A stretch of 40,485 nucleotides of DNA from an uncultured Acidobacteriia bacterium (GTDB lineage Bacteria; Acidobacteriota; Terriglobia; Bryobacterales; Bryobacteraceae). Shown in pieces: positions 2,827 through 37,761 of this stretch (positions are counted from its first letter, which is position 1; each line of letters begins with the position of its first letter). The notes beneath the pieces were generated by a model. It was not told the origin of the DNA and did no database searches. It was given only the letters and a program-made list of their open reading frames with translations. The stretch is from contig CAIYDY010000243.1 in NCBI GenBank assembly GCA_903925015.1, positions 1 to 40,485 of the forward strand. Reading direction: 5' to 3'. The translations under genes and the position numbers were made by a program.

Positions 2827-4986
2827 CTAATAAGGCACGACGTAGGTCACTGCGGGGGACGTCCCGGAAGAGTTATCGACATCGACAGAAATCGATTTGA
2901 AGATGTCCGAAATCGTCAGCGTAGTGCTGACCAGCGATGTGGGAATCGTCAGGACCACGGGAATGGAGACGGTAAACAACCCTCCGAAGCTATTGGAAGC
3001 CGAACTTCGGAACCATGCGTTGGCGACGGCCGTTAAATCCACGGTGAAATCCGTGGTTGAAAACGGAATGCGGCCGGTTGGGGAGAACTTCAGATGGGCA
3101 TGCCCCAGATTGCGCGGACTGGACACACCCGTCATCTGCACAAGATAGGCACCGCCACTGGCAACAAGATTCACCGTAAACAGGGTGGGAGACAACTGCG
3201 GGACCACCAAATGAAGGATATTGGGGATGGACGGGGTGAGATCATACCCAGCAGCCGTCCGCACCGTTGGCGAGACCTGAATTTCCCCAGCCACGCTTCC
3301 GGTCTGTATCCGCACCAAACTGCTTCCGCTATTGAAAACGGCCTTCAGCGTGCCCGTTGGGATCTTGAACGACACTTTGGACCCGCCTGTGGAAAACTGG
3401 ACGGACGGGTCGGCGGTGAAGGCCGGCGAGTCAAAACTCAAAGTCAGGTCCCCCGCCAGATCAACCGGCCACGGGCTGTCAATCGTTACGGAAAGCGGTA
3501 CCTGCATCAACGGCGTGACGGAGGCAGGAGCACCGGAAATCACCAAAACGGGCAGCTTGGAAGGGACGGTCGCCGACGCGGAGAGTGTATACGAGTAGGA
3601 ATCGAAGGCCAGGGTACCGGAGAAAGGCCCGGTGGTGACCGGCGCAAACAAGACTGTGAATCGCGACTCCTGCTGCGGGTCCAAAACCAAGGGAAATTTG
3701 GGCAACCCCGACAAACTGAACGCCGACCGGTCATTTGCCAAGCCCGCACTCGAAAGGGAAATGGTGGCGGCTGTGAGGTTGCGGATCACAACCTGGGCCG
3801 CACCGGTGGTGCCAAGCGTTGTGATTGGAATCGGAATCGTGCCATTCGTCGCGATCTTGGTTTCGCCTTGGGCTCCCAAAACTGAAACTTCCAAGGCGCT
3901 GCTCAACCCTGCACCGGACAAAAGCAGCGCGTCGGTGCCAATCTTGAGCCTGGAACTGAAGATCTCCCCCTTGGAGGGGACAAAATTGACCGGCAGGTCC
4001 AGCGTGGCACCGCTGGCCAAAACGAAGGGCAAAACCGGCAGTATCGGCAGTTGAAAATTGGTCGAATCGCTGAGTGAAATGTCGGAAATGGAATATGTGC
4101 TTGGAGTCTGGTTCGCCACCCGGATTAGAAGGCCCGACTGGCGACCAACCAAGGTCGCTGGATACGTCACAGTGGAATTGGCAGCCAGCGCGGTGGTCGC
4201 GCCAGCGTCGGAAACCAGACTGTAGGTCAACTGCGGCGAGTACGCCGATCCGCTGACCGTGAACTGCAGAGGGTCTCCGGGACCATCCACTTGGACTGTA
4301 CCTGTGAGCGCTCCCGGACTTGCCGACTGCAGCCGCACCCCGAACGACACGCTGCGGGCCGGATCGACGACGACCGGCAAAAGCGGGAGGTTGAAAAGCT
4401 CGAGCGCACCCGTAACAGTCACCCGACGGACGTTGGCGGCCGCCGAACCAATATTGTTCAGGGTAATTGTAGCTTGGGCGGAGGTGTTTACCGACACGGC
4501 CGGGAGCTGAATCTGGCCGCCTGTCACCACGGGCCGAGCGTTGCCGTCGGTCGGCAGCGAATATGTCGCCACCACTTGGGGAGCCGTACCGGAAATACCA
4601 AAACTGGCTGTCGCAATGTCTCCGCCGGTTTCGCGAAAGGTGACGACCAACAGCGCTTGGGTGGCGGAGGCGGTGGATGCTGTGTAGCGGACGGTGAAGG
4701 TGTAGGTGTCTGTCGGCTGGAGTGTCGGCGTGGCGGTTGAACCCAGGACAAAGTCCTTGGTACCGAGTAGTTCCGTGCGCAGAATCGCGGCAGCCTTGGC
4801 ACCTGAATAGAATGCGCTGACGGTGATTTCCGATGTTTGGCCCAACGCGCTGACGGGAAGGACCACGGTACCCGAGTTGGCAACCGTAAAGACGTTCCCG
4901 GAACTCTGGACGCGGAACTGGAGCACCTGGGCGGCAAGGCCCCCGCAGGTCAACAAACACAGCGCAATTAGACGTAGGATACGCAT
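2827..4986 (-). CDS. secreted choice-of-anchor-D (ASPM-SPD-2-Hydin-like) repeat protein
   Basis: A 719-residue exported protein of unknown function. It starts with a Sec signal peptide (MRILRLIALCLLTCGG, cleavage near LAAQ). Several Ig-like beta-sandwich modules follow. Recurrent phrases such as ITLNNIGSAAANVRRVTVTG, NLPLLPVVVDPARSVSFGV and FSGTLAFDSYSYTLSASA are typical of choice-of-anchor-D/HYDIN-type domains. Roughly four to five copies lie in the first 480 residues, and the last 200 residues are also beta-rich. No transmembrane anchor, PEP-CTERM or enzymatic motif is visible. The ATG lies 5 bases after the stop of the upstream propeller-like gene, so this is the third gene of a minus-strand operon. 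A structural or surface-binding role is inference. Confidence 0.8.
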   Translation of the reverse strand: MRILRLIALCLLTCGGLAAQVLQFRVQSSGNVFTVANSGTVVLPVSALGQTSEITVSAFYSGAKAAAILRTELLGTKDFVLGSTATPTLQPTDTYTFTVRYTASTASATQALLVVTFRETGGDIATASFGISGTAPQVVATYSLPTDGNARPVVTGGQIQLPAVSVNTSAQATITLNNIGSAAANVRRVTVTGALELFNLPLLPVVVDPARSVSFGVRLQSASPGALTGTVQVDGPGDPLQFTVSGSAYSPQLTYSLVSDAGATTALAANSTVTYPATLVGRQSGLLIRVANQTPSTYSISDISLSDSTNFQLPILPVLPFVLASGATLDLPVNFVPSKGEIFSSRLKIGTDALLLSGAGLSSALEVSVLGAQGETKIATNGTIPIPITTLGTTGAAQVVIRNLTAATISLSSAGLANDRSAFSLSGLPKFPLVLDPQQESRFTVLFAPVTTGPFSGTLAFDSYSYTLSASATVPSKLPVLVISGAPASVTPLMQVPLSVTIDSPWPVDLAGDLTLSFDSPAFTADPSVQFSTGGSKVSFKIPTGTLKAVFNSGSSLVRIQTGSVAGEIQVSPTVRTAAGYDLTPSIPNILHLVVPQLSPTLFTVNLVASGGAYLVQMTGVSSPRNLGHAHLKFSPTGRIPFSTTDFTVDLTAVANAWFRSSASNSFGGLFTVSIPVVLTIPTSLVSTTLTISDIFKSISVDVDNSSGTSPAVTYVVPY

Positions 4987-4991
4987 GGCTG

Positions 4992-5972
4992 TCAGTTGTT
5001 TGGAGGCGGAGTCGCGGGCACAAAAAATACGGAGCCCGACTTTACTTCCAGCAACAGCGCGCTACTGGCTTCCTGGCGGCGCAGCGCCAATGTGAACAAG
5101 CCCGTCGCACCGTAAGCGTCCAACCCTTCGGGCGCGCCCTCAAGGAGAACCTCGAACGGTAGATCGGTTGAATTCGCGTCGAAAACCAAGAGCCTGTCCG
5201 GATTGGCGTAGGCAAGCGCCACGCGGCTTCCATCCGCCGGGGTGGCCAACCAGCAAGGACACCTGACTTCGGAAGGAACCGGAGCATCCAGTTGGGCAGG
5301 TGCATCCAAAACCGGATCAAATTTCAAGAGCGTCCCTGAACTGGAACTAAAACCGTACAGGAAAGCGCCCGAGGGGTCCAACGTGATCGCTTCCAGTTGC
5401 TCAACGGCGGCAATTCGACTGGCTTCACCCGTAAACGCGACCCGGTAAAGTCCACTGCCGCCCTCCTGCTGAACCGCAAGCAGGATCTCCGACGTTTGGG
5501 CCTTTACAACAATGCTTCGAATAGCCGCAAACGCAAAGCCGGACTGGATTTGAGGGTCTGGAATCGGCTGGTCCGTACGCCACACCTGAAACGCGGCCGA
5601 TCCGTCGGGCCTGATCATCGCAAAAGCCACTGCCTTGCTATCACGCGACCAGACAATCTTGAAGCGCTCGGGGGCCTCCCCCAAGGGCATGGACGCAATG
5701 ACGTCCGCACCCTTCAGGCGCACCAAATCAAATTGGCCCGCGACGAGCGTGACCACCGCATTTCCGTCCGGCGATGTCCAAGCGTTGTCTACCCCAGTCA
5801 GGATGCCGACACCGAATCTGGCACCACCGGGCACACCCAACACCTGCCGCACACTTCGGGAAGGCGGATCGAACAAGACGCCCGACGTCACACCAGCAAG
5901 TTGCACTTGGCCGACCACAGATGTTGCGGCCAGACCTGCAATTGCGCACGCGATGGCGGAACGTAGAATCAG
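4992..5972 (-). CDS. exported beta-propeller-like protein, probable CTG start
   Basis: About 326 residues. The fold looks like a WD40/TolB-type propeller: short strands with SPDGNAVVTLV, WSRDSKAVAFAMIRPDGS, LDPSGAFLYGFS and TPADGSRVALAYANPDRLLVFD recur about every 40-50 residues. A clean Sec signal (LRSAIACAIAGLAATSVVGQ) begins only after codon 39 of the longest frame. The upstream extension is rich in Arg, Trp and Cys and overlaps the preceding gene. The start that fits is CTG at 5972-5970: GGAGG lies 7-8 bases upstream and the codon overlaps the upstream TGA as CTGA. ATT at the next codon is the only close alternative. It sits between an Ig-like anchored protein and a choice-of-anchor-D protein. 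The substrate is unknown. Confidence 0.72.
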   Translation of the reverse strand: MILRSAIACAIAGLAATSVVGQVQLAGVTSGVLFDPPSRSVRQVLGVPGGARFGVGILTGVDNAWTSPDGNAVVTLVAGQFDLVRLKGADVIASMPLGEAPERFKIVWSRDSKAVAFAMIRPDGSAAFQVWRTDQPIPDPQIQSGFAFAAIRSIVVKAQTSEILLAVQQEGGSGLYRVAFTGEASRIAAVEQLEAITLDPSGAFLYGFSSSSGTLLKFDPVLDAPAQLDAPVPSEVRCPCWLATPADGSRVALAYANPDRLLVFDANSTDLPFEVLLEGAPEGLDAYGATGLFTLALRRQEASSALLLEVKSGSVFFVPATPPPNN

Positions 5973-6565
5973 GCTCCACCTCCAACGGTCGGCGTTCCCA
6001 ATTTGATGGTGCCTGACGAGGCGCTGCGGGTAACCAGGATCGCGACCACAATGCCAACCGCAGCAGCTACGCCCAAGATCAGCCACTTCGAGCCAATGAC
6101 ACCACGACCGGACTTTTCATCAAAAGTAATGACCTGCGGCTGCTTGCCGTTGCGTTGGATGATGGTAACCGAAGCCCATCCGCCCGGCGCTTGGGCGGTG
6201 GCCTTCATTGTCACCAGACCGGTTTTGGTCGGGACATAGCCGCGTCCAGTTGCCTGTCCACGGGAGTCGGTGACGGTCTCGAAGACCAAGGGTTGGGCTG
6301 TAAAGTGCCCGAACTTTGTGTCCTGCAATTCGAATCGTACCGGAATACCGCTTAGAATCTGCCCTTGGGCGGAGCGCACAACAACGATTGGAGCGAACGC
6401 GTCCTTCGACGGCACACTGTTGACCGCCCGGTTACCGGAGTAGATCGCAACCACCGGCGGTTCTTTAGGAGCATCCTGGGCCGGCAGGTCCGCCGCCAAC
6501 AGGTTGGCCAGGGAAAGCGCGATGCACAGTAAGGGCGTAAGTCTCAGGAAACTACTCCTTTTCAC
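5969..6565 (-). CDS. exported Ig-like domain protein with C-terminal membrane anchor
   Basis: A 198-residue protein, first gene of a three-gene minus-strand operon. A signal peptide (TPLLCIALSLANLLAA) is followed by one bacterial Ig-like (Big_1/invasin-like) domain: VVAIYSGNRAVNSVPSKDAF, then GIPVRFELQD, then TDSRGQATGRGYVPTKTG. A single C-terminal helix (WLILGVAAAVGIVVAILV) comes next, followed by a short Gly-rich tail. The longest plausible start is GTG at 6565, which has no good ribosome binding site. An AAGGAG sits inside its first codons about 7 bases before a CTG at 6547, an alternative start directly in front of the signal peptide. The TGA stop overlaps the next gene's CTG. It could tether the two downstream exported proteins to the membrane; that is inference. 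Confidence 0.72.
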   Translation of the reverse strand: MKRSSFLRLTPLLCIALSLANLLAADLPAQDAPKEPPVVAIYSGNRAVNSVPSKDAFAPIVVVRSAQGQILSGIPVRFELQDTKFGHFTAQPLVFETVTDSRGQATGRGYVPTKTGLVTMKATAQAPGGWASVTIIQRNGKQPQVITFDEKSGRGVIGSKWLILGVAAAVGIVVAILVTRSASSGTIKLGTPTVGGGA

Positions 6566-6595: not shown

Positions 6596-8152
6596 CTAGC
6601 GGGCGGGATAGGGGTTGTAAAGCGCCTCCAATTGGAGCGGCACTCCATGGGAAACCAGCCGGGCCAGTGCACGCAGAATCGAAACCTCGCTGGGCTGGCC
6701 TTTCAGGTCGCAGGGGACCGCGGCATGGGGCCGGTCCTTCAGGATTTTCTCGATCCAAGTGCAGCAATTGCGTCGGCCGCCCAGTTCCAGGAAGATTTTA
6801 GGACCCGTCGCATAGATATTCCTTACGAGCCGGGGGAAATCGGCAACTCGGCAGTAGGCCTCTGCGGTCGTGTGCGCAGGCGATTCCTTGGCAAAGTCGA
6901 TGGGGCGGCAATAGGCGGACGAGAAGAAGTCGATGCCGGGTTCGGGGATCACTGTCAGCGAGTGGATGGCCACCAAGTTGTCGTATTCACCCCGGGTTGC
7001 CTCGCAGTGCATGGTGACGGGGATCGGGACGGGGCTGGCCACCGACGCACCGATCCGTTCCAGTGCCCGGTTGCAGCCATTGCGCTCCCCGGCAATCACC
7101 ACTTCCCCGGGTGTGTTGATATTGCACAGGAAAACGTTCTTTTCCGGTTTGATGGCCGCAAAAGCGAGGGCAGGAGTAGTCCGCACAGTCCACGAGTCCC
7201 ATTCGACCTTCGCGCCAACCGGCAACCCCCATTGTTCGCGAATTGAATCCTTCGGTCCGTGGAGCCGGGTGCTGAAAGTGGGAATGCGGTCCAAATTTTG
7301 GGCTAGCTCCACCGGATCGGGCCACACCCCCAAACAGGCAAGCATGATCGCTTCCCCGAAACTGTAGCCGGCAGCCGCGCGCGGCTTGACTTGGAACAGT
7401 TCCCGCAGAATCCACGTGTAAATCAGTGACGTCGCAATGGCGCAGTGTCCCAGCATCACGACATCGCGGTAGAAACTGGCTTCGTCGGCCGGTCCATGGG
7501 GGTACATCTCGTCAACATGCAAGTAATGGTGCGCTTGGCCCCGCGTCATGGCCTCGAAGCGGTCCAGCAACGGGGGCGACAAGGAGAAGAGGTCCGCCCC
7601 GAGACCGGGATATGGGCTGCCAATGCCCGGATACAGGAAGCAGACACCATCCTGGCCCAGTGGAGATGCTGTGAAATAGCTGCCTCCGGGCGTTTTCCAC
7701 TCCCCGTTGGTCTCGAATGCGCGGGGAATGCCGATGGCGGCCTGGGCGATTTCGCGTGCGAGATCTTCCGGATTGCGTGCCAGAATAACGGCGGAATGCC
7801 GTGCGGGCGACCATTCGCGGAATGCGTGATCCGGGGTCTTTCCGGCAAGACCGGAAACGGCGGCCAGCAAACCGGCTTGGCTGTCACCAGAAACTGGATA
7901 CAGTTTGAGCGCCCGGAACGGGAAAGTGGACAGCGGGAGGGCATGGTCAATCCCAGGTTCCGTAAATCGCCGCCCGCCCACCGTCGCAACGCGCGGTCCG
8001 GAGCCGATCCACGGCCCGAACTTCAACTGGCGGTAGAAGAGGGCAAGTTGCGCGGACTCAACGGAATCAAAGGCTTCGGCATCGCCTTGGAGAGTGCTGC
8101 CAGTACCTCCGCTGGCGAAGAACTGTTCGGACAATTCGGTAAATGTAGACAT
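6596..8152 (-). CDS. PfaB-like acyltransferase (orphan polyunsaturated fatty acid synthase AT protein)
   Basis: A 518-residue protein with the acyltransferase fold of PfaB from omega-3 PUFA synthases. The AT domain runs from about residue 165 to the end. It has CFLYPGIGSPYPGLG, the nucleophile motif GYSFGEA with Ser about 264, LGVWPDPVELAQ and WDSWTVRTTPA. It also has the PVTMHCEAT stretch carrying the likely catalytic His, FLELGGRRNCCTWIEKIL, and VSILRALARLVSHGVPL. These match the order and wording of marine PfaB AT domains as I remember them. The first 150 residues are divergent; I cannot see a functional ketosynthase there. No pfaA, C, D or E genes occur in the window. Its start is 1 base beyond the ftsK stop, so it is probably co-transcribed with ftsK. 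The acyl substrate is unknown. Confidence 0.75.
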   Translation of the reverse strand: MSTFTELSEQFFASGGTGSTLQGDAEAFDSVESAQLALFYRQLKFGPWIGSGPRVATVGGRRFTEPGIDHALPLSTFPFRALKLYPVSGDSQAGLLAAVSGLAGKTPDHAFREWSPARHSAVILARNPEDLAREIAQAAIGIPRAFETNGEWKTPGGSYFTASPLGQDGVCFLYPGIGSPYPGLGADLFSLSPPLLDRFEAMTRGQAHHYLHVDEMYPHGPADEASFYRDVVMLGHCAIATSLIYTWILRELFQVKPRAAAGYSFGEAIMLACLGVWPDPVELAQNLDRIPTFSTRLHGPKDSIREQWGLPVGAKVEWDSWTVRTTPALAFAAIKPEKNVFLCNINTPGEVVIAGERNGCNRALERIGASVASPVPIPVTMHCEATRGEYDNLVAIHSLTVIPEPGIDFFSSAYCRPIDFAKESPAHTTAEAYCRVADFPRLVRNIYATGPKIFLELGGRRNCCTWIEKILKDRPHAAVPCDLKGQPSEVSILRALARLVSHGVPLQLEALYNPYPAR

Positions 8153-8153
8153 G

Positions 8154-10688
8154 CTAGTTATCGGAATCGACTTCCCTCAGCCATTCCGGCCGTTTGAGAA
8201 CCTCGCGCGGCTTGCTGCCGTCAGGCGGTCCGATCACCCCGTCCTTGTACATCATGTCGAGGATTCGGGCTGCCCTGCCATAGCCCAGCCTGAGACGGCG
8301 CTGGAGTGTCGACGTCGAGGCCTTGCCCATTTCGAGCACAACGCGCATGGCTTCCTCGTACATCGGATCCTGCTCGCCGGTGGAAACTTCTTCCGGAGTA
8401 CCATCGCCATCCTCGGTCGGCGGCGCGATCAGGTACGACTGATCATATTCCGGCTTGGCTTGGGCCTTCCAGAAATCCACCACGCCGCTGATTTCCGTTT
8501 CCGTCACAAACGCGCCGTGGACGCGGGTCAGCCGCGAGGATCCCGGCGGTAGGAACAGCATGTCACCCTTGCCGAGTAGGTGCTCCGACCCCATAACGTC
8601 CAGAATCGTGCGGCTGTCCACGCGGGTCGCCACCCGGAAGCTGATGCGGGCTGGAAAATTGGCTTTGATAATACCGGTGATGACGTCGACGGACGGACGC
8701 TGCGTTGCCAGAACCAAGTGCATGCCGACGGCACGCGCCATCTGGGCTAGACGGGTCACGGACTCCTCGACGTTCTTGCCTTCCAGCATCATCAGATCAG
8801 CTAACTCGTCGATCAGGATCAGGATGTAGGGCAGTGGGCGGAGTTCGTCCTTCTGCGGGTCGTCACTTTCCTCCTCGAAAAGGCTTCGTGGCTGGTTGCG
8901 GAGGCTGAGAACCTTCTTGTTGAACTGGTCGATGTTGCGCGCGCCTTGTTCGGCCAACAACCGCAGACGCCGCTCCATTTCGAGCACAGCGTTCTTGAGG
9001 GCGTTGGTTGCCTTGCGGGGATCTGTGATGACCGGCGTCAGCAAGTGCGGAATCCCCTCGTACATGCCCAATTCCACACGTTTCGGATCGACCATGATCA
9101 TCCGGACCTCATCCGGGGTCGATTTGTACAGGATCGACATGATCAAAGAATTGATCATGACCGACTTGCCCGAGCCCGTGGACCCGGCGATCAGCACGTG
9201 GGGCATTGTTTCCAGCGTCGCAACCTTGATGCGACCGTTGATATCCTTGCCCATCGAAATCGTCAGATGGGAGGGCGAACTTTCGAATTCCTCGGATTCC
9301 AAAACGGCCCGGAGGCTGATGACCTCGCGCTTTGTGTTCGGGACCTCGATGCCGACGGTCGGCTTGCCGGGGATGCGCTCGATAAGAATGGACTCGGCTT
9401 GGAGACCGAGGCACAGATCTTCCGTGAGATTGGTGATGCGGCTGTACTTGACACCAGCATCCGGCTTGAACTCAAACGTGGTAACAACCGGTCCGGGGTT
9501 GATTTGGACGACGCTGCCGAGCACGTTGAACTCTTCAAACTTCGACTTGATCGCTGCGGCGGTGTTTTTCAGTTCCTGCTCATCGAATGCGGAGCGTTGC
9601 GGAATAGCATTCAGGAGTTCCGTCGACGGCAGGCGATAGATTGTAGGCAGCTTGACTGCGGATTCGCGGGCCTTGGCCGGCTTGTTGAACGGAAAGTCGG
9701 CGGCGTGGGCAGGTGTGAGATCTTCCTCGTCCAAGCGGCGAATGGGAATTTCACCGGGGATTGCAGAGAGATCTGTGAGTTCGCCGACCTGCTCCGGCAG
9801 CAGTGAACGCGAAGACGGTTGGTCCCAAGGCATGGTCTCGGAGAACGTGTCGTTGGAGGCCGCCGGGCGACGGGGTGATTGCGTCGGCTGCGGCACGATG
9901 GGCGGACCCGCATGGGCCCTGTAATCGGTGGAAGTCGGCGACGCGAATGCCTCCCGCACCTCGACGATTTCCGTGTCCACCAATTTCGAGTCAGTGTCAC
10001 TCGAAGCTGACAACTTCCTACGCTCAGCCTTTAAGGCTACGGCCTGCGCCTTGGCCTCCTGCTTCAAGCGTTTGCGTTCCAAGGCAGCCTCTCGGCGTTC
10101 CCGCCGCCAATTCACCCAGCTCGTTTGGATGCCCCTGAAGAAGGTTCCGATGGGAGCCAGGAAGTTCCAAAGGACCGACAGGGTAAAAGTGGAGACCAGA
10201 TAGGTAGAGACAAGCAGACACGTCGCCATCAGCACGATGGCTCCCGCTGAGTTGAATCCCCTACGGAGCGCCCCCGCCAGCAGAAACCCTGCCGCGCCGC
10301 CCGGCAGAACGGTGCGCTCGAACATGCGCCAGTCCGGTAGCATGGCCGCCAAGCCACATGCCGAGAGGATCATGAGAACGGCTCCAGGAACCTTCACCCA
10401 GGGCGCTGCCAAGGCCTCCGAGCGTATCCACTTCCACCCGAGGCCGAACATCAGGACCGGCAGCAGGAACGCGGCAAATCCGAAGCTTTGGAGGAACAGG
10501 TCTGCTATGAACGCACCCACGGGGCCGATCAGATTCTCGGCGGTTTCGCGCCCTGTCACGGTGTTCCATGACGAATCTCCGGGGTGGAACGACGCGAAAC
10601 TCAGGAGTGCAAGAATCCCGCTCGCAAGGAACAGAACTCCCATCACCTCGTTGAGGCGCTTGTGTTGGGTCGGGGTAAAAATTCTCAT
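8154..10688 (-). CDS. ftsK: DNA translocase FtsK/SpoIIIE
   Basis: FtsK is the septum-anchored ATPase that pumps chromosomal DNA and helps resolve dimers at division. The 844-residue product has four N-terminal membrane helices (about residues 14-170) and a charged, Ala/Arg-rich linker. The motor follows, with Walker A AGSTGSGKS near residue 500 and Walker B ILILIDELADLMM. A C-terminal winged-helix gamma domain (STSTLQRRLRLGYGRAARIL) recognises KOPS-type DNA. I chose ATG at 10688 (MRIFTPTQHKRL). The frame stays open another 133 codons, but that extension lacks FtsK character and would run through the divergent kinase gene. It lies head-to-head with the kinase fragment, with an 87-base spacer. 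Confidence 0.96.
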   Translation of the reverse strand: MRIFTPTQHKRLNEVMGVLFLASGILALLSFASFHPGDSSWNTVTGRETAENLIGPVGAFIADLFLQSFGFAAFLLPVLMFGLGWKWIRSEALAAPWVKVPGAVLMILSACGLAAMLPDWRMFERTVLPGGAAGFLLAGALRRGFNSAGAIVLMATCLLVSTYLVSTFTLSVLWNFLAPIGTFFRGIQTSWVNWRRERREAALERKRLKQEAKAQAVALKAERRKLSASSDTDSKLVDTEIVEVREAFASPTSTDYRAHAGPPIVPQPTQSPRRPAASNDTFSETMPWDQPSSRSLLPEQVGELTDLSAIPGEIPIRRLDEEDLTPAHAADFPFNKPAKARESAVKLPTIYRLPSTELLNAIPQRSAFDEQELKNTAAAIKSKFEEFNVLGSVVQINPGPVVTTFEFKPDAGVKYSRITNLTEDLCLGLQAESILIERIPGKPTVGIEVPNTKREVISLRAVLESEEFESSPSHLTISMGKDINGRIKVATLETMPHVLIAGSTGSGKSVMINSLIMSILYKSTPDEVRMIMVDPKRVELGMYEGIPHLLTPVITDPRKATNALKNAVLEMERRLRLLAEQGARNIDQFNKKVLSLRNQPRSLFEEESDDPQKDELRPLPYILILIDELADLMMLEGKNVEESVTRLAQMARAVGMHLVLATQRPSVDVITGIIKANFPARISFRVATRVDSRTILDVMGSEHLLGKGDMLFLPPGSSRLTRVHGAFVTETEISGVVDFWKAQAKPEYDQSYLIAPPTEDGDGTPEEVSTGEQDPMYEEAMRVVLEMGKASTSTLQRRLRLGYGRAARILDMMYKDGVIGPPDGSKPREVLKRPEWLREVDSDN

Positions 10689-10775
10689 CCGGCTGGCGGT
10701 CGGAAGAAAAGCTGGAGCAACACCAGTATCGCAGAAACGTGACCCGAATGCCACGGCCTCTGCGACAATGGCAGC

Positions 10776-11220
10776 GTGGCGGACTGGCTGCGAATTGAAG
10801 AGTTGTTCCTCGGCGCATTGGATCTGGAGCCCGGCAAGAGGGACGCGTATCTGGAAGCAGCATGCGCCGGGGACCGCGAACTCAAGCGGGAAGTTGAGCA
10901 GATGCTCGCGGTGGATGCACCCGGTCAGACCGGAATATTCGGCAGATCCGTGGTTGCGGCGGCGCGCGAATTGGCAGAGGACGAATGGGGCGGCAGACAG
11001 ATCGGGCCTTGGCGGATTGTGCGGGAGATCGGCCGCGGAGGCATGGGATCGGTCTACCTTGCCGCTCGCGCAGAAGAACAGTATCAAAAGTTAGTAGCCA
11101 TCAAGGTGTTGCGCCAGGGAATGGACTCGACCGAACTGGTCGGAAGGTTTCGCCATGAGCGGCAAATCGTAGCGCAGCTCGACCACCCTTACATAACCCG
11201 GCTGCTGGACGGCGGCACGC
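10776..11220 (+). pseudogene. truncated Ser/Thr protein kinase (N-lobe only)
   Basis: The first ~148 residues match the N-terminus of acidobacterial membrane Ser/Thr kinases. A helical leader (LRIEELFLGALDLEPGKRDA) is followed by the kinase start, with glycine loop IGRGGMGSVYLA, lysine in VAIKVLRQG and the C-helix Glu in RFRHERQIVAQL, ending at HPYITRLLDGGT. There the kinase homology stops: no HRD, DFG or APE motif follows in any nearby frame. The frame continues about 22 meaningless codons, through sequence that in another frame is an IS110 transposase, and stops at 11288. The GTG at 10776 is the start. The leader and loop resemble the intact TPR kinase at 24943, so both are members of one paralogous family. 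It is a broken gene and not expected to phosphorylate anything. Confidence 0.8.
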
Positions 11221-24370: not shown

Positions 24371-24946
24371 ATGGAAGACGACACAGGCGAAGTCACAAGA
24401 CATCTGAAAGCTTGGACGGGGGGGGACGAGGATGCCCTGAACCGGATGATGCCCCTCGTCTATCAGGAACTGCACAAGATCGCCCGGCGTGTCTGGCGCG
24501 GCCAGGATCCGGACCATACCCTCCAGCCCACCGCACTGATCCACGAAGCGTACGTGAAGCTGGCCGGGGCCGGAATGGAATTCCAAGACCGGAATCATTT
24601 CTACGCCGTCGCGGCAGTTGCCATGCGGCAGATTTTGGTCAACCACGCGAGGTCGAATATGGCGGGTAAACGCGGCGGCGGGCAAGTGAAAGTGTCGCTC
24701 GATGATGTCCAGGCGTCGGTCCAGAAAGAATCGGAGGAAGTACTCGTGGTCCACGAATCCCTGGAGCGGCTGGAAAAATTAGATCCGCGCAAGTGCCGCG
24801 TCGTCGAATTCATATACTTCGGGGGTTTTGGGATGGAGGAAACGGGTGCGGCGCTGGGGATCTCCCCGCGCACAGTCACCCGTGAGTGGACCGCCGCCCG
24901 CGCATGGATGGCGAAGGATATTGGTTTCAGGCAGCTAAGTGCATGA
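24371..24946 (+). CDS. ECF-type RNA polymerase sigma factor (ECF_sigma/Sig-70_X6 group)
   Basis: A 191-residue extracytoplasmic-function sigma factor. Region 2 is seen in ALNRMMPLVYQELHKIARRV and TALIHEAYVKLAG, followed by the RNHFYAVAAVAMRQILVNHA stretch characteristic of the PF07638 group common in Acidobacteria and Planctomycetes. Region 4 is the helix-turn-helix in VVEFIYFGGFGMEETGAALG, then ISPRTVTREWTAARAWM. It ends in an ATGA overlap with the Ser/Thr kinase gene, so the pair is translationally coupled. No anti-sigma factor is adjacent. In this group a neighbouring kinase is thought to take that regulatory place; that is inference here. Confidence 0.92.
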   Translation: MEDDTGEVTRHLKAWTGGDEDALNRMMPLVYQELHKIARRVWRGQDPDHTLQPTALIHEAYVKLAGAGMEFQDRNHFYAVAAVAMRQILVNHARSNMAGKRGGGQVKVSLDDVQASVQKESEEVLVVHESLERLEKLDPRKCRVVEFIYFGGFGMEETGAALGISPRTVTREWTAARAWMAKDIGFRQLSA

Positions 24947-27900
24947 ATCGCGAACAATGGCACTTGGTGGACCGGCTCTACTTGGAACTGGCCTCGCTCG
25001 ACCCTCCGGAGCGCGCCGCCAAGTTGGACGTGGCCTTCGCAAGCGGCGAGCTAGCCGAACACCCCGACTTGCGGCAGGAAGTCGAAAGCCTGCTGTCGGC
25101 GGATGAAACCGGAGGGAGTTTCCTCGGTCAATCCCCTGCGAACCTGGCCCAATCGGCGATTGCCGCCAAAGAGCCCGGCACCGAGGTCCCTGCCACGATA
25201 GGTCCGTACCGCATCCTGAGGGTGCTCGGGCAAGGCGGCATGGGTACCGTGTACCTCGCCGAACAGGACGCGCCCAGACGCCCCGTCGCGCTGAAAGTGA
25301 TCCGCGTGGGGCTGGCCACGGACGAGGTGCGTCGCCGCTTCCAGCTCGAGACGGAAGCACTCGGGCGGCTGCAGCATCCCGGAATTGCCCGGATCTACAG
25401 CGCCGGAACTACCGATGCCGCCAACGGTTCCCAGCCCTACATTGCAATGGAGTACGTCTCCGGCAAGACCCTCCTCGAATTTCTCGAACACCAACCCGAG
25501 ACGGCCGCCCGGATGGAACTGTTCGTCAAAATCTGCGATGCCGTCTCCCACGCGCACAAACAGGGCATCATCCACCGCGATCTGAAACCGAACAACATCT
25601 TGGTGGATGAATCGGGACAACCCAAAATTGTGGACTTCGGCGTCGCCCGGCTAACCGACAGCGATACCAGCGCGACGAGGCAAACAGACATCGGACAGTT
25701 GATCGGCACCCTGGCCTACATGAGCCCGGAACAGGCACTGGGCGACCCTTCCGCGCTGGACACCCGCAGCGACGTCTATGCACTGGGCGTGATTTTGTAC
25801 CAGTTGCTGGCCGGACGGTTGCCCTATGACATCAACCGGTTCGCGATCGCCGAAGCGGTTCGGGTCATCCGCGAGGAGGATCCGAGTCCCCTCAGCAGCA
25901 TCAACCGGAGCTTCCGGGGCGACATCGAGACCATCGTCGCCAAGGCTCTCGAAAAGGAGCGTACCCGGCGCTACACCACCGTTGGCGACATGGCCGAGGA
26001 CCTGCGGCGGCACCTGCGCAACGAGCCCATCGTCGCGCGACCCGCGAGCGCCGCCTACAGGGCTGGAAAATTCTACCAGCGAAACCGCCTCTTGGTATTG
26101 AGTACACTCGCCATCATCGTGGCATTGTCCGTGGGTGCCGTCGCGAGCACCTTGCAGGCGATTCGTGCGCGCCAAGCCGAAATAAGAGCGCTGGAACAGA
26201 AGGAACGCGCAACATCCGCCCAGAAGATGGCGCTTGACCAATCCGCCATCGCTCAACGGGAGCGGAACACCGCATTGGAACAACGGACCCTGGCCGAGCG
26301 CGAAAGAAATACCGCGCAGACACAGCAAAAACGCGCTGATGAATCGGCGGCCGAGGCCCGGGCGGTGAACGAATTCCTTCTGCGCGACCTTCTGTCGCAA
26401 GCCGATATTCAAAACCAAGGTCCCGGGGACCGGCCCGATCCCGACATCAAGGTGCGCACGGCATTGGATCGCGCGGCAGCCAGTTTGTCGGGTCAATTCG
26501 CAGCGCAACCGCTTGTGGAGGCCTCGGTCCGCCGAACACTGGGTCAGAGCTATGCGGGCTTGGAACTGCTCCCGTCGGCACGCAAGCAGTTCGAACGCGA
26601 ATTGGCATTGCGGCTCCAACACCAGGGTCCACAGCACCCGGACACGATTGAATGCCGCATCCATCTGGCCTGGCTCCGGATCTCGGAGGGTAAGTATGCG
26701 GATGCCCATGCGGAGGCGTTGGCCATCGACACGCTGACCAGCAAGCCGGGAGTAGTGGGAGAAACGCAGCGCCTCGAAGCATTGCATCTGCTGGGTACAA
26801 CCTACATCCGGACAGGCAAGTTCCCCACGGCAATCCAACTCTACACCAAGATGCTGGAAACGGTTCGCCGGACCCATAAGGAAGAATCGCAGCAAGTGGT
26901 CAACACCATCTCGTCCCTCGCCGCCGCCTACGAGGGCGACCGGCAATTCTCCAAAGGTGCCGATCAGTTGGAGCCCCTGATCAAAATCCTGCAGGTCAAA
27001 CTTGGGCCCGAGCATCCAGAAACCTTGGCCGCCCGCATGCGCCTAGCGGGCGATCTGAACGAGATGAAGCATTGGGACGAGGCGCAAAAGATGATTCGGG
27101 AAATTGTCCCGGCCTATGAACGCCTGCGCGGTCCCGACCACCCCGCGACCCTTGCCGCGATGAACGAATTGGGTGCCGTACTCCGGTCTTCCGGCCAAGC
27201 CGACCAAGCCCTGCCGTTGTCCCAACAGATCTATGAGCGGCGGCTGCGAACGCAGGGGCCGGACCATCCCGCCACCATCAATGCGATGAACAACATCGCA
27301 AACAGCTACTCCTTCCTCCACCAATTCGACAAGGCCATTCCCTTGGCCGAAAAGGTGCTGGCGGACCGGCGCCGGGTGCTGGGACCGGAGCACACCAGCA
27401 CCCTGGTCGCCTTGATGAATATTGCGGTCGACCACGCCAAGATGAAGGATTACGCCAAGGCTGAAACCTACTACCGGCAACTCTGGGACATCTGCAAGAA
27501 CCAAAAAGAGCCCATCTTCAACAACATCATCAGTGGCATGAACGGCACCCAGGGAATGATGTACCGGCAGGGCAAGTACGCGGAGTCGGAGGCCCTGGAG
27601 AAGGAGATCATCGCCTACAGGCGCAAGGTTCGCGCCTTCGCACCAGAGAAAATACTCCAGGAGGAAGTCATCCTGGCGGATATCTACTATCACGAAAAGA
27701 AATTCGCCGACGCCGAACAACTGCTCCTCGTCTGCCTGAAGAAGGAAAATGCCGAGAAGCTGCCGACGATGTTCCTCCACCTTGCCGAGAGCCTGATGGG
27801 CGGTATTCTCGCCCGGCAAGGGAAATCCCCGGAAGCCCGGCCACTGCTGGAACGGGGCTATCAAGGCCTGGAAGCGGAACGGCCCCGGATTATCGAGCTG

Positions 27901-27957
27901 GAGCTTTACTACATCGACGAGGCAAAGACGCGGCTCGCGAAGAACGGCTTGGACTAG
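24943..27957 (+). CDS. membrane Ser/Thr protein kinase with C-terminal TPR repeats
   Basis: A 1004-residue Hanks-type kinase. Residues 1-80 are a helical leader (WHLVDRLYLELASLDPPERA) shared with the broken kinase at 10776. The kinase domain covers about 87-360: glycine loop LGQGGMGTVYLAE, Lys118, Glu137, HRDLKPNN (211-218), DFGVA (231-235) and MSPEQA. All catalytic residues are intact. One membrane helix follows (LLVLSTLAIIVALSVGAVAS, 383-402), then a coiled coil rich in Ala, Glu, Arg and Gln (about 405-475), then an extracytoplasmic array of TPR units of the kinesin-light-chain/TPR_12 type from about 540 to the end (GPEHPETLAARMRLAG, GPDHPATLAAMNELGAV, GPDHPATINAMNNIANS, GPEHTSTLVALMNIAV). 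ATG 24943 is chosen because it overlaps the sigma-factor stop (ATGA). Confidence 0.93.
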   Translation: MNREQWHLVDRLYLELASLDPPERAAKLDVAFASGELAEHPDLRQEVESLLSADETGGSFLGQSPANLAQSAIAAKEPGTEVPATIGPYRILRVLGQGGMGTVYLAEQDAPRRPVALKVIRVGLATDEVRRRFQLETEALGRLQHPGIARIYSAGTTDAANGSQPYIAMEYVSGKTLLEFLEHQPETAARMELFVKICDAVSHAHKQGIIHRDLKPNNILVDESGQPKIVDFGVARLTDSDTSATRQTDIGQLIGTLAYMSPEQALGDPSALDTRSDVYALGVILYQLLAGRLPYDINRFAIAEAVRVIREEDPSPLSSINRSFRGDIETIVAKALEKERTRRYTTVGDMAEDLRRHLRNEPIVARPASAAYRAGKFYQRNRLLVLSTLAIIVALSVGAVASTLQAIRARQAEIRALEQKERATSAQKMALDQSAIAQRERNTALEQRTLAERERNTAQTQQKRADESAAEARAVNEFLLRDLLSQADIQNQGPGDRPDPDIKVRTALDRAAASLSGQFAAQPLVEASVRRTLGQSYAGLELLPSARKQFERELALRLQHQGPQHPDTIECRIHLAWLRISEGKYADAHAEALAIDTLTSKPGVVGETQRLEALHLLGTTYIRTGKFPTAIQLYTKMLETVRRTHKEESQQVVNTISSLAAAYEGDRQFSKGADQLEPLIKILQVKLGPEHPETLAARMRLAGDLNEMKHWDEAQKMIREIVPAYERLRGPDHPATLAAMNELGAVLRSSGQADQALPLSQQIYERRLRTQGPDHPATINAMNNIANSYSFLHQFDKAIPLAEKVLADRRRVLGPEHTSTLVALMNIAVDHAKMKDYAKAETYYRQLWDICKNQKEPIFNNIISGMNGTQGMMYRQGKYAESEALEKEIIAYRRKVRAFAPEKILQEEVILADIYYHEKKFADAEQLLLVCLKKENAEKLPTMFLHLAESLMGGILARQGKSPEARPLLERGYQGLEAERPRIIELELYYIDEAKTRLAKNGLD

Positions 27958-30841: not shown

Positions 30842-33800
30842 TTACCGCAGTGTTGTAATCGACACGGTCGCCGGCGTTCCCCCGTCGCGCGTGTATGTAA
30901 CATCCATCGTCACCTTCGTGGCCAGCAAGCCCCAGTCGAAGTAGATGGCCGCCGAACCCTTGCCGCCCGAAGCCCCGATCGTGCCGAATGAGGCTGGCAG
31001 ATAGCCCGCCAACGGGGCTACGGTCGGCCTCGAAATCGAACTAGAGCAAGCCCCGCCGCTGGCCGCCGCCAGAAGCGCCGCGGCAGCCGGGCCCGGTACC
31101 GGATCGACCAGGAACACACAGGACGAGGTGCCCGTCACCGTCTGGATCGCCGTCACATGCACATCCGTGATCCGCGCATTGCTCGCCGCCGCGTTGCCGC
31201 TGTTGGTGGCATTGAAGAGGACAATGCGGTAGCCGGAGCCAACGTCGGTGCTCCGTGTCCCGATACTCACGTTCAGGATCGGGTTCAGCGGTATGTAGTT
31301 TGCCACCATCGTCACGGCGGATGCGTTCGCCGTAAAGGTTTGGGTCGCTTGGTTCACCAACCCGGCCACTGCCAAAGCCGCAGTCCCCGGCGGGATCACA
31401 ACACTGGCCCCGGTGAAGCTCCAGTGGTCGAACTTGTAGTTGCCGATACTGCTGGCGCTGACCGTGAAGTTGGGCGAGGCCATCGGGAATGTTCCCCCGC
31501 CCGTCACCGTTCCTGCACCCGCCGGAGAGGCGCCCGTGGTCACCGTATACGCCGGAATGAAATTCGCCACCGGGTAGTCCGGCCCGTTGTGGCTGACATT
31601 GAGCAGCAGCGGATTGACCGTGGACGTGTTCGAATTGCCCTGGAAGGTCCACTTGCTGAACATGTACCCGGGGTTCGGCACCGCCGTTACCGTCCAGATC
31701 GTGGCTACCGGATAGAAGGTGCCGCCGCCCAGCACCGTTCCGCCAGTTCCGGCAGTCGCGGTTTCGTAAACTGCCACGTCCGCGCTGCAGCCCAGGAGCA
31801 GCGGCTGCGATCCAACCGTAATTTGGTGCGTGGCGGCACCGCCGTCGGTCCATGACGAGAACGTGGTTTGGGTGGTCGAACCCGGGATCCCCGAGATTCC
31901 GGTGCATGAAACGCTGTGCGTGCCCGGAGCCAGGTAGAACGGCGTGTTGCTGAATCGCCCAACCCCGTCGGCGCTCAAGAGCACCTGCGACGAGCCGGAT
32001 ACCTGGTACAGATTTACAGACTGGTTCACCACCAATGTCGCCGTGGTGCTGCCCGTGTAGATCGAATCGTTGATCGTGGCCACCACCGTATAAGTCCCGC
32101 CGGTCGTCGGCAGATACTGCGTGCCGTTGTACGTCAGCGTATAGTTCAGATTCGCCGGCACCGTGGTCACCGTGACGGCGTTCCCGGCGGGATTGGCGTT
32201 CTGGTTGAGGTTGCCGATGGTGATCTGGCCGGTCGCGTTCGTGATGGTCAGAGTTCCGGTCGCCGTCCCCGTGTAGTTGTCGTTGATGGTCGCCGTCACC
32301 GTATAGCTGCCCGGATTGATGGGCGTCGCCGGCTGGCCATTCTGGGCGTAGGCGAAATCCACACGCAACCCCGCTGGATTCGTCGTCGCCGTGGCGGACC
32401 TCGCGGTGTTTGCCAAGTACGGCTGGCTCAGGCTGCCCAGCGTGACCGTTGCCACGCCCTTCTGGATCACCAGGGTGGCCGTGACGGTCGCCGACGTGTA
32501 ATACGGGCTGGCCGGATCCACCACTGCCGTCACCGAGTGCGTCCCAACCGATGTCGGCAATGTAGCGCTGCCGTCGTACAGCACTTTCAACGGCACGTTG
32601 GCCGCGCCGAGATTCGTGGTGAACGAGAGCGACTTCGGCGTCCCGTCATACACGAACGGGCCCGCCGCGCCTGTCTGGCTCACGACCAATGTCCCCTTCG
32701 CTGTCGTGAAGGTCGCACTGTTCGACGTGCTCGCGCTGTTGTCCACATCGCCCGCGTAGGTCGCTTGGATCGTATGCGAGCCGATATCGAAACCGGTCCG
32801 GATGGTGGCGATACCCGACGCGTTCATGGTGGAACTGCCGAGAGCCGTTGAGCCATCCATGGTGAACGTGACCAGGCCTGTCGCCTTGGCCCCGCCGCCG
32901 ACATAGCTGTAGCCGATCTGCGCCGTCAGGACCACCGACGTGTTGTAGGCCACTGTCGCGGGCACGGTCAATGACAGGTTCGTCGTGCTGCGCGTGTGGA
33001 CGTTCATCACTCCGGTCGCCGAACCGGTATAGTTCGGGTCCGTGATTGTAGCCACCGCGCGGTACATGAAGGATTTGGCCCCGCTGGGGAGGACGGGCAA
33101 GCTCGGGCTCGCCGGGTTGAGGTAGTCGTCGTAGAGCACCTGGTAGCTCAGGCCCGCGGGAGACGTGACAACGGTGACCGGGTTGGCCGTGCCGCCCGGG
33201 CTCACCACGGAATTCAGGTTCCCCACCGTCAGGCTGGCGATCTTCTTGCCGATCAGCAGCGTGCCCGACGGGAACGTGTAGTTGGCGTTGGTCGCCGTCA
33301 CCGTATAGGTTCCCGCGTTGGTCGGGGCGATCGCCGTCGGAGTCCCGCCGGAAATCGGCGCGTAGGCCAAGGTCACGGCCACATTCGGCGTCGGCACCGC
33401 GGCGGCCAAGTGCTGCGTGCCGTCATAGGTGATGCCGGAAACGCCGGTGTAGACGATCGAACCCGCCGCCTTGTTGATGGTAAAGGTACCGCTGATCGAG
33501 CCGGAATAGTTGGTGTCGTTGATGGTTCCCACCACCGCATAGCTGCCTGCGTTGGTCGGGGCCCCGCCGCCGTTGTATGTCAAGTCCACCCGGATGCCCG
33601 GAACCACCGAGCCGTTCGACCCGGTCACGGTAGCCGTCGCCGAGAGCGTGCTGCCCGTGTAGGTCGGGCTCAGGTTGCCGAGCGTGACTTGGGCCTGCTG
33701 CTTGAAGACGCTGACCGTGGCGGCGCTCGAAGTGGAGGTCGCGTTGTTGGGATCCGAATGCGAGGCGTTGTAGGTTGCGGTGAACGTGTGGAGTCCGCCG

Positions 33801-36800
33801 GTCGGGGTGACGCTGAAAGTGGTGTTCAGGGTCGGGTTGGAGCCGGTTGGCGTGTACGTCTGTGCCAGCGTCCCGTCCACGTAGAAGCCGATGGACCCGG
33901 TCATCGGGGACCCGGAATAGCCCCCCACGAAAACGGGGAACTGGAGCTGTGTTCCGTAGGCCACGCTCGTACCGACGTAGTTGTTGGTAAGGACCGTCAC
34001 CGTGGCGGGCGTTGTGTGGATGTCGAGCGTCGCGTCGGCCGTGCCGGTATAGTTCGAGTCGGTCACCGCCACATGGACCGCGTAGGTGCCCACGGCGGAC
34101 GGTGCGGTCGAACTGCCCGCGTAGGTCAGCGAGTAGGCCACGTTGGGGCTCAGGCTGACCGTCACCGGCTTCGGCGAACCATCATAGTTCTGGCTGGTGT
34201 TGGTAATGCTGATGGTAACCGTACCCTGCGTGATTACCAGGGTTGCCGTGCCGGTCCCGGTGTAGCTGGAGTCGCTGACAGTCCCCGTCACGCAGTAGCT
34301 GCCCACGGCGCTGGGCGCGGTTGCCGTCGGTGTCGCGGCGCTGGGGCAGACCCCGTTCACGTAGGTCAGGTTCACGGTCTTGCCTGTCGGGAACGTGGTC
34401 ACCGTCGGAGTCTTCTGGCCCCCGTTGTAGGCTTGGCTCAGATTCGAGAAGTTGACTGTCGCCGATGCCTTGTTCACCACCTGGCTGATCGCCGACGACG
34501 CCGGAGCCGTCACGTTGGCGTCGCCCGAGAGCACGGCCGTGATCGAATGCGTGCCAACCGTCAGCGCGGTGGTCGAGTACATCCAGACGCCGGGCGAAAC
34601 CAACGTGCCGGTCCCGAGCGTGGTCGATCCATCCTTGAACGTGATCGTGCCGAGGCTCGAAGCCGGGCTCAGCGTGGCCGTGAAAGTCGCCGAGTCGCCC
34701 AGATTGGTTGCCACCGGGGACGAAAGAACCAGCGTTCCTGTCGCCTGGGTCACCGTGAAGTTCACCGTGTTGCTGGTGGAGGAGTTGTTCCGGATGTCGC
34801 CGCTGTAAACCGCCTTGGCACCCGAGTAGCTGCCTGCCGGGACGCCCGCGAACGTCCAGGGGCCGCCGGCGGCGCGGGTAGCCGTGGCCAGCGCCGTGTT
34901 GTCGGCCCGGTAGAGCGCCACGTCGCCAGTGGGAGAACTCAAGCCGTTCGCGCCCGCCGCCACCGCCAGCGAAACCGGGGCCGTTGCTCCGTAGATTGCT
35001 GTTGCGCCGCCGGTTGTGGTCAAGGTCGCGGTCGTGCCGGACATCGCGCCGTTCGAGAGGTAGTAGGTCGTGCATCCGCCTAAGGGGCCGTAGGCGGAGA
35101 GGATATCCACGCGGCCGTCGCCGTCAAGATCGGCTGGCGCGAACCACGTCGGCTGGCCGCAGCCGTCTGTGCTGTTGGGAAACTGGATGTCCCGTGTGCT
35201 GAAGCCGCCCGCCCCGTCGCTTAGGGCCGCAATGATGTCGCCACCGATATAGGTGCCGTTGAAGTAGTGCGCGGGGTTGCTGACCAGAATGTCGAGCTTG
35301 CCGTCGCCGTTGATGTCTGCCGTCTCGATCCAGTTGGCGCCATTGTAGTAAGAGGCCCCGAAGCCGAGGCTGGAGAGGGTGTAGGCTGCGACGGGCGTGC
35401 CGGGGAATGAGCTGCCTCCGAAGTAGACATTTGGCCCGGATGAGGTCAACACGATAAAATCCGTGACGCCGTCCCCGTTAACGTCGCCGGAAGCGACGGC
35501 AAGCCCGTAGAGCCCCACGTAGTAAGAGCCGCTAAAGCCCCCGGACCCGTCGCCCTTCAGGACGTAGACCCGCTGGTTGGTCTGCGAGCGGGCCTCGAGG
35601 GCCAGATCCAGGTTGCCGTCATTGTCGAAGTCGCCCACGGCCATGCTCTGGTTGCCGCCGCCTTCGAGTTCGTTGTTGTAGGGGCCGCCGAACACGGTTC
35701 GGCTGCCCGCGAAAGCCAGGTGACCGTGCCCGTCATTCAGCAACATGGCGATTACGCCCCCGGACCGGATCACGAGGTCGGTCCGGCCGTCGCCGTTGAA
35801 ATCCCCGGTGATGACACCCGGGTCCTGGCTGCCGAGGCTGATGGATCCGTAGTATGCCGGCGGGAGGCCCGGCACCGGCACTTGCGTGCCGTAGGTGAAA
35901 TTCCCTGCACCGTCGCCCAGGTGGGTGGACAGACGGTTGCCATATACGTTGAAGGACACCAGATCGAGTTTGCCGTCGCCATTCAGGTCCAGCAATGCGA
36001 CGGAGTCGCTGTAATTCATGTCGCTGTAGCTGGCGACCGTCGTGTAGGTCCCGGATCCGGTATTCAACTGCGCCACGATCTGGTCGCCGAATGTCAGAAT
36101 GTCGGGTTTGCCGTCGCCGTTGATGTCCGCCACCAGCGTGCGCCGCTGGTTCTGGCTGGTCATGGTGGTGGGCGACGCCAGCTTGCCGGACGCCGCAGCC
36201 ACGCTCAGTGTCACGTTGGTGGCTGTGCCCGAATAGCCCGAAGCCGAGTAGGCGACCTTGCCCTTGTAGGTGCCCGCCGCGAGGCCGGTTGTATTCGCCG
36301 TGAAGCTGACCGGTGTCCCCGTGGTGCCGGAGGCCGGGACGGACAGGAACGACGGTGTATTGACCGGAATATAGGTCGATGCGGTGCTGAACCCGGTGCT
36401 GCCGCCCGCGTATGTGCCCACAGTGACTGGCACCGCCGCCGGAGCCGCTTGGCCCGCGCCCGCGTACATCGTAAACTGCCGGGGCGCCTTCAGCGCGGCC
36501 GCCGTGTTCAGCAGCACCGTAGGCGTCCCCACGGCCACCACGTCCGTCAAACCGTCGCCGTTCAAATCCCCGATGGCAATCGTGAAGTTGGAGTTGCCCG
36601 CCTGGTAGCTGGTCTTGGTGAAATTTCCCGCTCCGTCGCCAATCATGAGCGCGATGGTGCCGTCCGTGAAGTAGCCCACAAGGTCCGGTTTGCCGTCTCT
36701 ATTGAAATCCGCGGCGGCAATCCCGTAGGAATACCCCGAAAAATTGATTTCCGGCCACGGGGAACTGAAGGACAGGTTCCCCGGCCCAGTACTGGTGTTG

Positions 36801-37618: not shown

Positions 37619-37761
37619 AACGCTTCTCCTCCGGCCAAGGCGGATTGAATCCGCACCGGCATGTCTTACCAGCGTAACGGGAATAGTAGTCGCGATCAAC
37701 AAAACCGGACCTGTTGGGGTACCTCTAGTACTACAACTGACGTGTTATCCTACAAAGCAAA

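Follow-up and report, generated by a model that had tools for sequence, protein, structure and literature searches.

A conserved pfaB gene located away from pfaA, pfaC and pfaD, and most likely serving them in trans, in an uncultured bacterium of the Bryobacteraceae

In the published types of pfa synthase, pfaB is either a gene of its own or fused with pfaC (PMC3098273, PMC8841776, PMC8436480, PMC13291983; these papers and PMC12895367 were available in part, and statements citing them are limited to that text). The pfaBC-fusion synthases include Types C, D and I of Shulse and Allen 2011 (PMC3098273), the myxobacterial Pfa1-3 (PMC8436480) and the pfaD-A-B/C arrangement of the EPA-producing Acanthopleuribacteraceae, which are also acidobacteria (PMC8841776) and whose EPA suggests, by analogy, that a fused acyltransferase (AT) can be enough. 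A shorter Type R cluster has been listed for Ca. Solibacter (PMC3098273). PfaB has been described as the terminal acyltransferase deciding between EPA and DHA, with a preference for long chains of C16 and above (PMC12895367). In the same account the Tyr before the catalytic Ser is required for the activity of M. marina PfaB, the Trp pair W501/W511 is invariant among PfaB proteins, PfaB has neither the Gln nor the Arg of malonyl-specific ATs, and S. baltica PfaB begins with a KS' region (residues 1-255) followed by a linker (residues 256-361). The literature searched, which was mainly open-access text available in part and is weak evidence of absence on both counts, yielded no description of a bacterial pfaB located away from the other pfa genes and none of a fused PfaBC occurring together with a separate PfaB.

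The window, meaning the whole stretch of DNA analysed, is the 40,485-nucleotide contig C243 of an uncultured member of the Bryobacteraceae (genome G000), a 6.33-Mb draft of 459 contigs that is 97.35% complete. The pfaB gene occupies positions 6596..8152 of the minus strand, starts with an ATG at 8152 and encodes 518 amino acids; the plus-strand frame over 6596-8152 is interrupted by stops. All of the motifs quoted in the original prediction of a PfaB-type AT (FLYPGIGS, GYSFGEA, LGVWPDP, TMHCEA and LVSHGVPL) were found in the minus-strand translation, and the assignment itself was confirmed by the NCBIfam model TIGR02816 (pfaB_fam), which matched residues 151-511 with 157.6 bits (E 4.7e-46; cut-off 144.3), and by grouping with S. 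baltica PfaB in trees. The nearest solved structure by sequence (phmmer) was that of S. baltica PfaB, 9RY8 (E 6.4e-42, residues 120-517), and the AT domain was placed from these two matches at residues 161-518 (6599..7672, minus strand). No Pfam family matched the protein at E<=0.01. Identification as FabD was rejected on the score of the FabD model (40.3 bits, equivalog cut-off 260.9), on GYSFG in place of GHSxG and on a tree position apart from FabD.

The GYSFGEA motif (residues 262-268; 7349..7369, minus strand) contains, from sequence and alignment, the catalytic Ser264 and, just before it, the PfaB-type Tyr263, and the catalytic His382 is that of TMHC (7007..7009, minus strand). Trp308 and Trp318 (7199..7231, minus strand) align with the pair W501/W511 (PMC12895367). 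These five residues are kept in all seven acidobacterial PfaB proteins aligned, which were those of G000, G017, G018, G006, G010, G031 and G215 (L075, assigned to this genome by its position). At Ser+25, the malonyl-binding Arg position, the window protein has Arg289 (7286..7288, minus strand) and S. baltica PfaB has Asn482 (PMC12895367); Arg is kept here in 6 of the 7, with Thr in G031. The Gln position of malonyl-specific ATs is occupied by His in G000 (His236), G017 and G018, by Gln in G006 and G010, which thus keep both Gln and Arg, and by Glu in G031 and G215; G012 has the same letters as G006 and G010 in the alignment. Motif IV (NAKGx[DES]) reads CDLKGQPSE in the window protein, with Lys-Gly kept and Asn-Ala replaced. 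The kept Arg289 and the varied Gln position speak, at the level of sequence, against a specificity simply identical to the published one for PfaB.

The first 150 residues had been said to match nothing recognisable and to be perhaps a degenerate ketosynthase (KS)-like remnant. The former held for Pfam but not beyond it, as hhalign matched the N-terminal 152 residues and their relatives, in co-linear order, to the last part of the PfaA KS and the linker that follows (E 5e-4). Against the PfaA KS tail, the match was E 8e-6 with the two longer relatives, G031 and G215, alone and weak (E 0.013) with five genus sequences alone; nothing convincing was obtained against PfaC. Residues 1-78 (7919..8152, minus strand) are a probable relic of the C-terminal tail of a pseudo-ketosynthase, to judge from the hhalign match to the PfaA KS tail and from the 9RY8 match, which begins at residue 79. 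Residues 79-160 (7673..7918, minus strand, the end being approximate) were assigned to a KS-AT linker domain from the AF2 model and its fold match to 9RY8. The notion of a remnant is thereby largely upheld, except that about half of the region is ordinary KS-AT linker. The AF2 model was poor overall (mean pLDDT 47.4, from an alignment of 7 sequences), and its fold matches therefore serve only as backing for the result from sequence; residues 81-160 were modelled best, in 10-residue blocks at pLDDT 70-92, and residues 1-78 received no fold assignment. Residues 79-513 of the model matched residues 260-720 of 9RY8, covering linker and AT, with Z 16.5 and rmsd 3.4 over 209 residues, the next structure having Z 12.8.

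Profile searches of contig C243 bore out the reported lack of pfaA, pfaC and pfaD from the window, as the KS and PfaD models had no match, no other Pfa protein was seen, and the single match of the PfaA model was pfaB itself (34.5 bits). The gene is nevertheless not the orphan it had been taken for, since a genome-wide search placed pfaA, pfaC and pfaD on other contigs of G000. PfaA is split by a contig gap: the KS-AT part and the first part of the ACP region lie on C117 (1195 amino acids, running off the contig), and the KR part lies at the edge of C96, followed by PfaC. The N-part scored 901.1 bits over its main stretch, or 941.7 in another search, which is below the full-length cut-off of 1010.1 because the contig edge cuts the gene; taken separately, neither piece exceeds that cut-off. 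PfaC on C96 has 1946 amino acids with two ketoacyl-synthase and three FabA stretches (Pfam), and PfaD on C318 scored 630 bits (cut-off 449.25). A single copy of pfaB was found, its product being the sole PfaB-family protein found in the genome. The DNA immediately downstream of pfaC was searched by tblastn and blastn for remains of pfaB in G000 (C96, 7422-12000) and in the related genome G018 (C126, 6.2 kb), which gave only chance-level matches, with a best E of 0.15 over both sites. A phosphopantetheinyl transferase (PPTase/AcpS) was not found in G000 with PF01648 at E<=0.001, a search that was positive in 10 of 14 control genomes; the enzyme may be divergent or may fall in a gap.

Across 237 genomes of the family, PfaB was detected over the cut-off in 8 and PfaD in 13, and all 8 were among the 13 (Fisher P 5.9e-12, a value overstated since related genomes were treated as independent; 6 of the 8 belong to one genus). 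In a set of 121 genomes (G000 and 120 relatives), 7 had a long PfaB match of at least 50% identity and 8 had PfaD over the cut-off; some match to the window protein occurred in 81 of the 121, PfaB being counted as the 7 long matches and the remainder being taken, by frame length and identity, as FabD, PfaA, PfaC or PKS ATs. Within the genus, six of the 19 genomes have both pfaB and pfaD, one has pfaD only and 12 have neither. The five PfaD-positive genomes without pfaB over the cut-off are G014, G153, G236, G179 and G183. The first two have a D-A-C(AT) synthase; in G236, D and A occur with a DH part resembling that of PfaC, and the stretch examined showed no PfaC-type AT motif. In G014 an open reading frame (ORF) stretch similar to the AMP-binding protein of the window lies between pfaA and pfaC (L088, 2400-3671). 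In G179 and G183 (L133, L134) a PfaD-family domain occurs in a 782-amino-acid frame beside several KS-rich stretches, and neither PfaB nor a PfaC-type AT motif was found in the stretches examined; these systems may be PKS with a PfaD-type protein and not PUFA synthases.

The gene order differs within the genus. In G006 and G010 the order is pfaD-pfaA-pfaC-pfaB in a row, with pfaB directly after pfaC, and G012 is consistent with this order, one of its contigs carrying D-A-C(start) and a second C(end)-B. In the clade of the window (G000, G017 and G018) pfaB lies away from the other pfa genes. The firmest case is G018, where pfaD lies 127 kb into the 315.8-kb contig C78, pfaA-pfaC within 160-180 kb of the 276-kb contig C126, and pfaB 19.8 kb into the 87.7-kb contig C149, so that no contig end is closer than 19 kb to any of them. 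In G000, pfaB, pfaA-pfaC and pfaD are likewise on different contigs. The dispersal is read as derived, because the clustered state occurs in the sister group; in the AT trees PfaB and PfaC-AT grouped these genomes in the same way. Elsewhere in the family, G031 has pfaB and pfaD-A-C on different contigs and was not counted as dispersed, as its pfaD is about 0.4 kb from a contig end, and G215 has a divergent pfaB about 2 kb from pfaD.

A further AT-like region, with a G[VILM]SSGE motif, was located inside PfaC. Each of the family's 8 pfaB genomes has its Ser motif, as do G014 and G153, both without pfaB over the cut-off. Its His is kept in every one of the 8 aligned rows, which came from G014 and 7 pfaB genomes, G215 and G153 lying outside the alignment. 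The Pfam AT model PF00698 reported PfaA and FabD only in G000, and neither PfaB nor the PfaC AT; PfaC was also not among the matches of the PfaB model at E<=1e-8. The assignment rests on a match to PfaB (E 6.3e-16), on the alignment and on trees. In both AT trees the 8 PfaB rows, including that of S. baltica (the one characterised PfaB in the trees, on a long branch), formed one group with support of 97/95, apart from PfaA-MAT and PfaC-AT in both and from FabD in the first. The PfaC AT lay beside PfaB, separate from both PfaA-MAT and FabD, with long branches. The trees were built without the PfaA of G006, G017, G012 and G215, the PfaC of G012, G215 and G153, the PfaB of G012 and modular PKS ATs, and the second also without FabD and the PfaC AT of G014. 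Within that sampling, neither profiles nor trees placed the window protein with FabD or PfaA ATs, and its reading as a PfaA-type AT was rejected on both trees. From these sequences the synthase appears to have three ATs, namely PfaA-MAT, PfaC-AT and PfaB.

The window gene is most likely a genuine, conserved PfaB that acts in trans with the PUFA-type synthase of its own genome. Service to a distant synthase had been foreseen in the original prediction, and it is the best reading of the pfaA, pfaC and pfaD genes found elsewhere in the genome and of the co-occurrence with pfaD. In the mechanism proposed, pfaB would have moved away from pfaD-pfaA-pfaC through rearrangement, and its product would act at a late stage as a soluble acyltransferase. 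With His382 activating it, Ser264 would take a long unsaturated chain from the ACP of PfaA and pass it on, a step that, as in the reports on PfaB of Shewanella and Moritella, would set the chain length or release the product. The KS-MAT-ACP, KR, KS-CLF-AT-DH and ER set would be expected to yield a polyunsaturated or similar long-chain lipid. PfaB may not be essential, given the conserved Ser and His of the PfaC AT and the synthases of G014 and G153 without PfaB over the cut-off. It is conceivable, if rather doubtful, that two late-stage ATs share one assembly line, with a fixed PfaC AT and a separately regulated, unlinked PfaB whose supply switches the chain length or fate of the lipid, and that the kept Arg would admit a carboxylated (malonyl-type) substrate too.

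Were the PfaC AT to do the job of PfaB, the separate pfaB could be a redundant leftover, dispensable and being lost after leaving the cluster, which we consider unlikely. The presence of the PfaC-AT Ser motif in every pfaB genome of the family, the PfaC ATs of G014 and G153, the loss of cluster linkage and a dN in the G000/G017 pair that is the highest of three pfa genes (pfaB 0.037, pfaC 0.020, pfaD 0.002) all fit a leftover, but pfaB is under purifying selection, with dN/dS of 0.054 (G000/G017), 0.080 (G000/G018) and 0.089 (G017/G018) and a frame that is open in each of the three genomes. By comparison, pfaC gave 0.066-0.075 and pfaD 0.006-0.069, while single pairs gave 0.070 for the PfaA N-part and 0.045 for ftsK; dS exceeded 1 in some pairs, so that those ratios are rough. 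The gene has also been retained throughout the dispersed clade, and its Tyr, Ser, His and Trp pair are kept in every acidobacterial PfaB aligned. A decayed copy, supplementing a complete cluster with its own pfaB, is rejected on the same ratios and open frames, no second pfaB having been found.

It is very improbable that the protein is the lone AT of a separate lipid pathway tied to ftsK or to Ig-like neighbours and not to the Pfa synthase. The ftsK gene (8154..11087, minus strand; FtsK_4TM, alpha, FtsK_SpoIIIE and gamma domains) lies 1 bp upstream of the pfaB ATG, and the spacing makes read-through from ftsK into pfaB plausible in G000. The adjacency that had been remarked upon is therefore real in the window, but it is not conserved among relatives: G017 (L057, 8145-9878) has an ORF for a 577-amino-acid AAA ATPase (AAA_21/AAA_15) on the opposite strand between ftsK and pfaB, G018 has the two genes on different contigs, and ftsK, present in all 19 genomes of the genus, had neither pfaB nor the other window genes tried beside it in 13 further genus-mates (besides G000 and G017, with G005, G011, G013 and G016 left out), over flanks of 1.3 to about 9 kb that were short in G009, G010 and G012. 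Conserved linkage of ftsK and pfaB was rejected on these grounds. The ATPase ORF, missing from the window, represents either an insertion in G017 or a deletion in G000. On the other side of pfaB, three genes on the same strand (2827-6565) stay with it in all three genomes of the clade, as a separate pathway would have it; these are orf5969 (5969..6565), Big_1-like at 21.8 bits against a Pfam cut-off of 34.9 and adjoining pfaB in each, orf4992 (4992..6086), of no family, and a gene for an ASH/choice-of-anchor-D protein (2827..4986). Strong matches to orf4992 (at least 53% identity) are, however, limited to the three dispersed genomes of the 19, with weak ones (27%) in G014 and G009. Against a pathway of PfaB's own, and against the suggestion of a new lipid pathway in the original prediction, pfaB over the cut-off occurs without pfaD over the cut-off in none of the 237 genomes, and it directly follows pfaC in G006 and G010. 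The window also encodes a protein kinase with TPR repeats (24886-27957, plus strand) and a large probable surface protein, a 2286-amino-acid ORF with FG-GAP, MBG_3 and Big_3_5 repeats (30842-37702, minus strand).

An assembly or binning artefact, with pfaB truly beside the pfa cluster or derived from another organism, might be suspected in a 459-contig draft with a split PfaA, but is hardly credible in view of the recurrence of the genes downstream of pfaB in two other genomes, the three large contigs of G018, the 41.8 kb of contig downstream of pfaC on C96, the single pfaB of the genome, the pyrG, kdsA, ftsK and sdh genes on the window contig, and a G+C content of 60.9% for pfaB and 60.7% for the window.

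A PfaB encoded without pfa neighbours need thus not be an orphan, and searches for contiguous clusters would miss the G000 synthase. Compared with S. baltica PfaB (9RY8; PMC12895367), which was used for the sequence comparison in place of that of M. marina, the window PfaB shares the AT fold, GYSxG with its Tyr, the Ser-His pair of residues, the Trp pair and a linker before the AT. It differs in its probable pseudo-KS relic, of about 78 residues against residues 1-255 in 9RY8, in having Arg in place of Asn at Ser+25, His at the Gln position and DLKG in place of NAKG, and in being encoded away from pfaA, pfaC and pfaD, unlike pfaB of the Shewanella and Moritella PUFA synthases. With the pfaBC-fusion synthases, the relatives of the window share the pfaD-pfaA-pfaC order and a PfaC with KS, second KS-like, AT and FabA-like stretches; unlike those synthases, in which the AT is fused and no separate pfaB occurs, G000 and its clade have a separate PfaB in addition to the PfaC AT, and their genes are scattered. 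As in the Type A/B clusters of marine Gammaproteobacteria (PMC3098273), PfaA, PfaB, PfaC and PfaD are separate proteins in G000, but its genes are not contiguous, its PfaC has an extra AT and its host is an acidobacterium. What is unusual here is that the pfa genes are scattered and that one synthase has an AT inside PfaC as well as a separate PfaB, a natural case that bears on the role of PfaB. PUFA-type synthases in acidobacteria were already on record, and to these is added a set of pfaA, pfaB, pfaC and pfaD in relatives recorded as Bryobacterales or Acidobacteriia.
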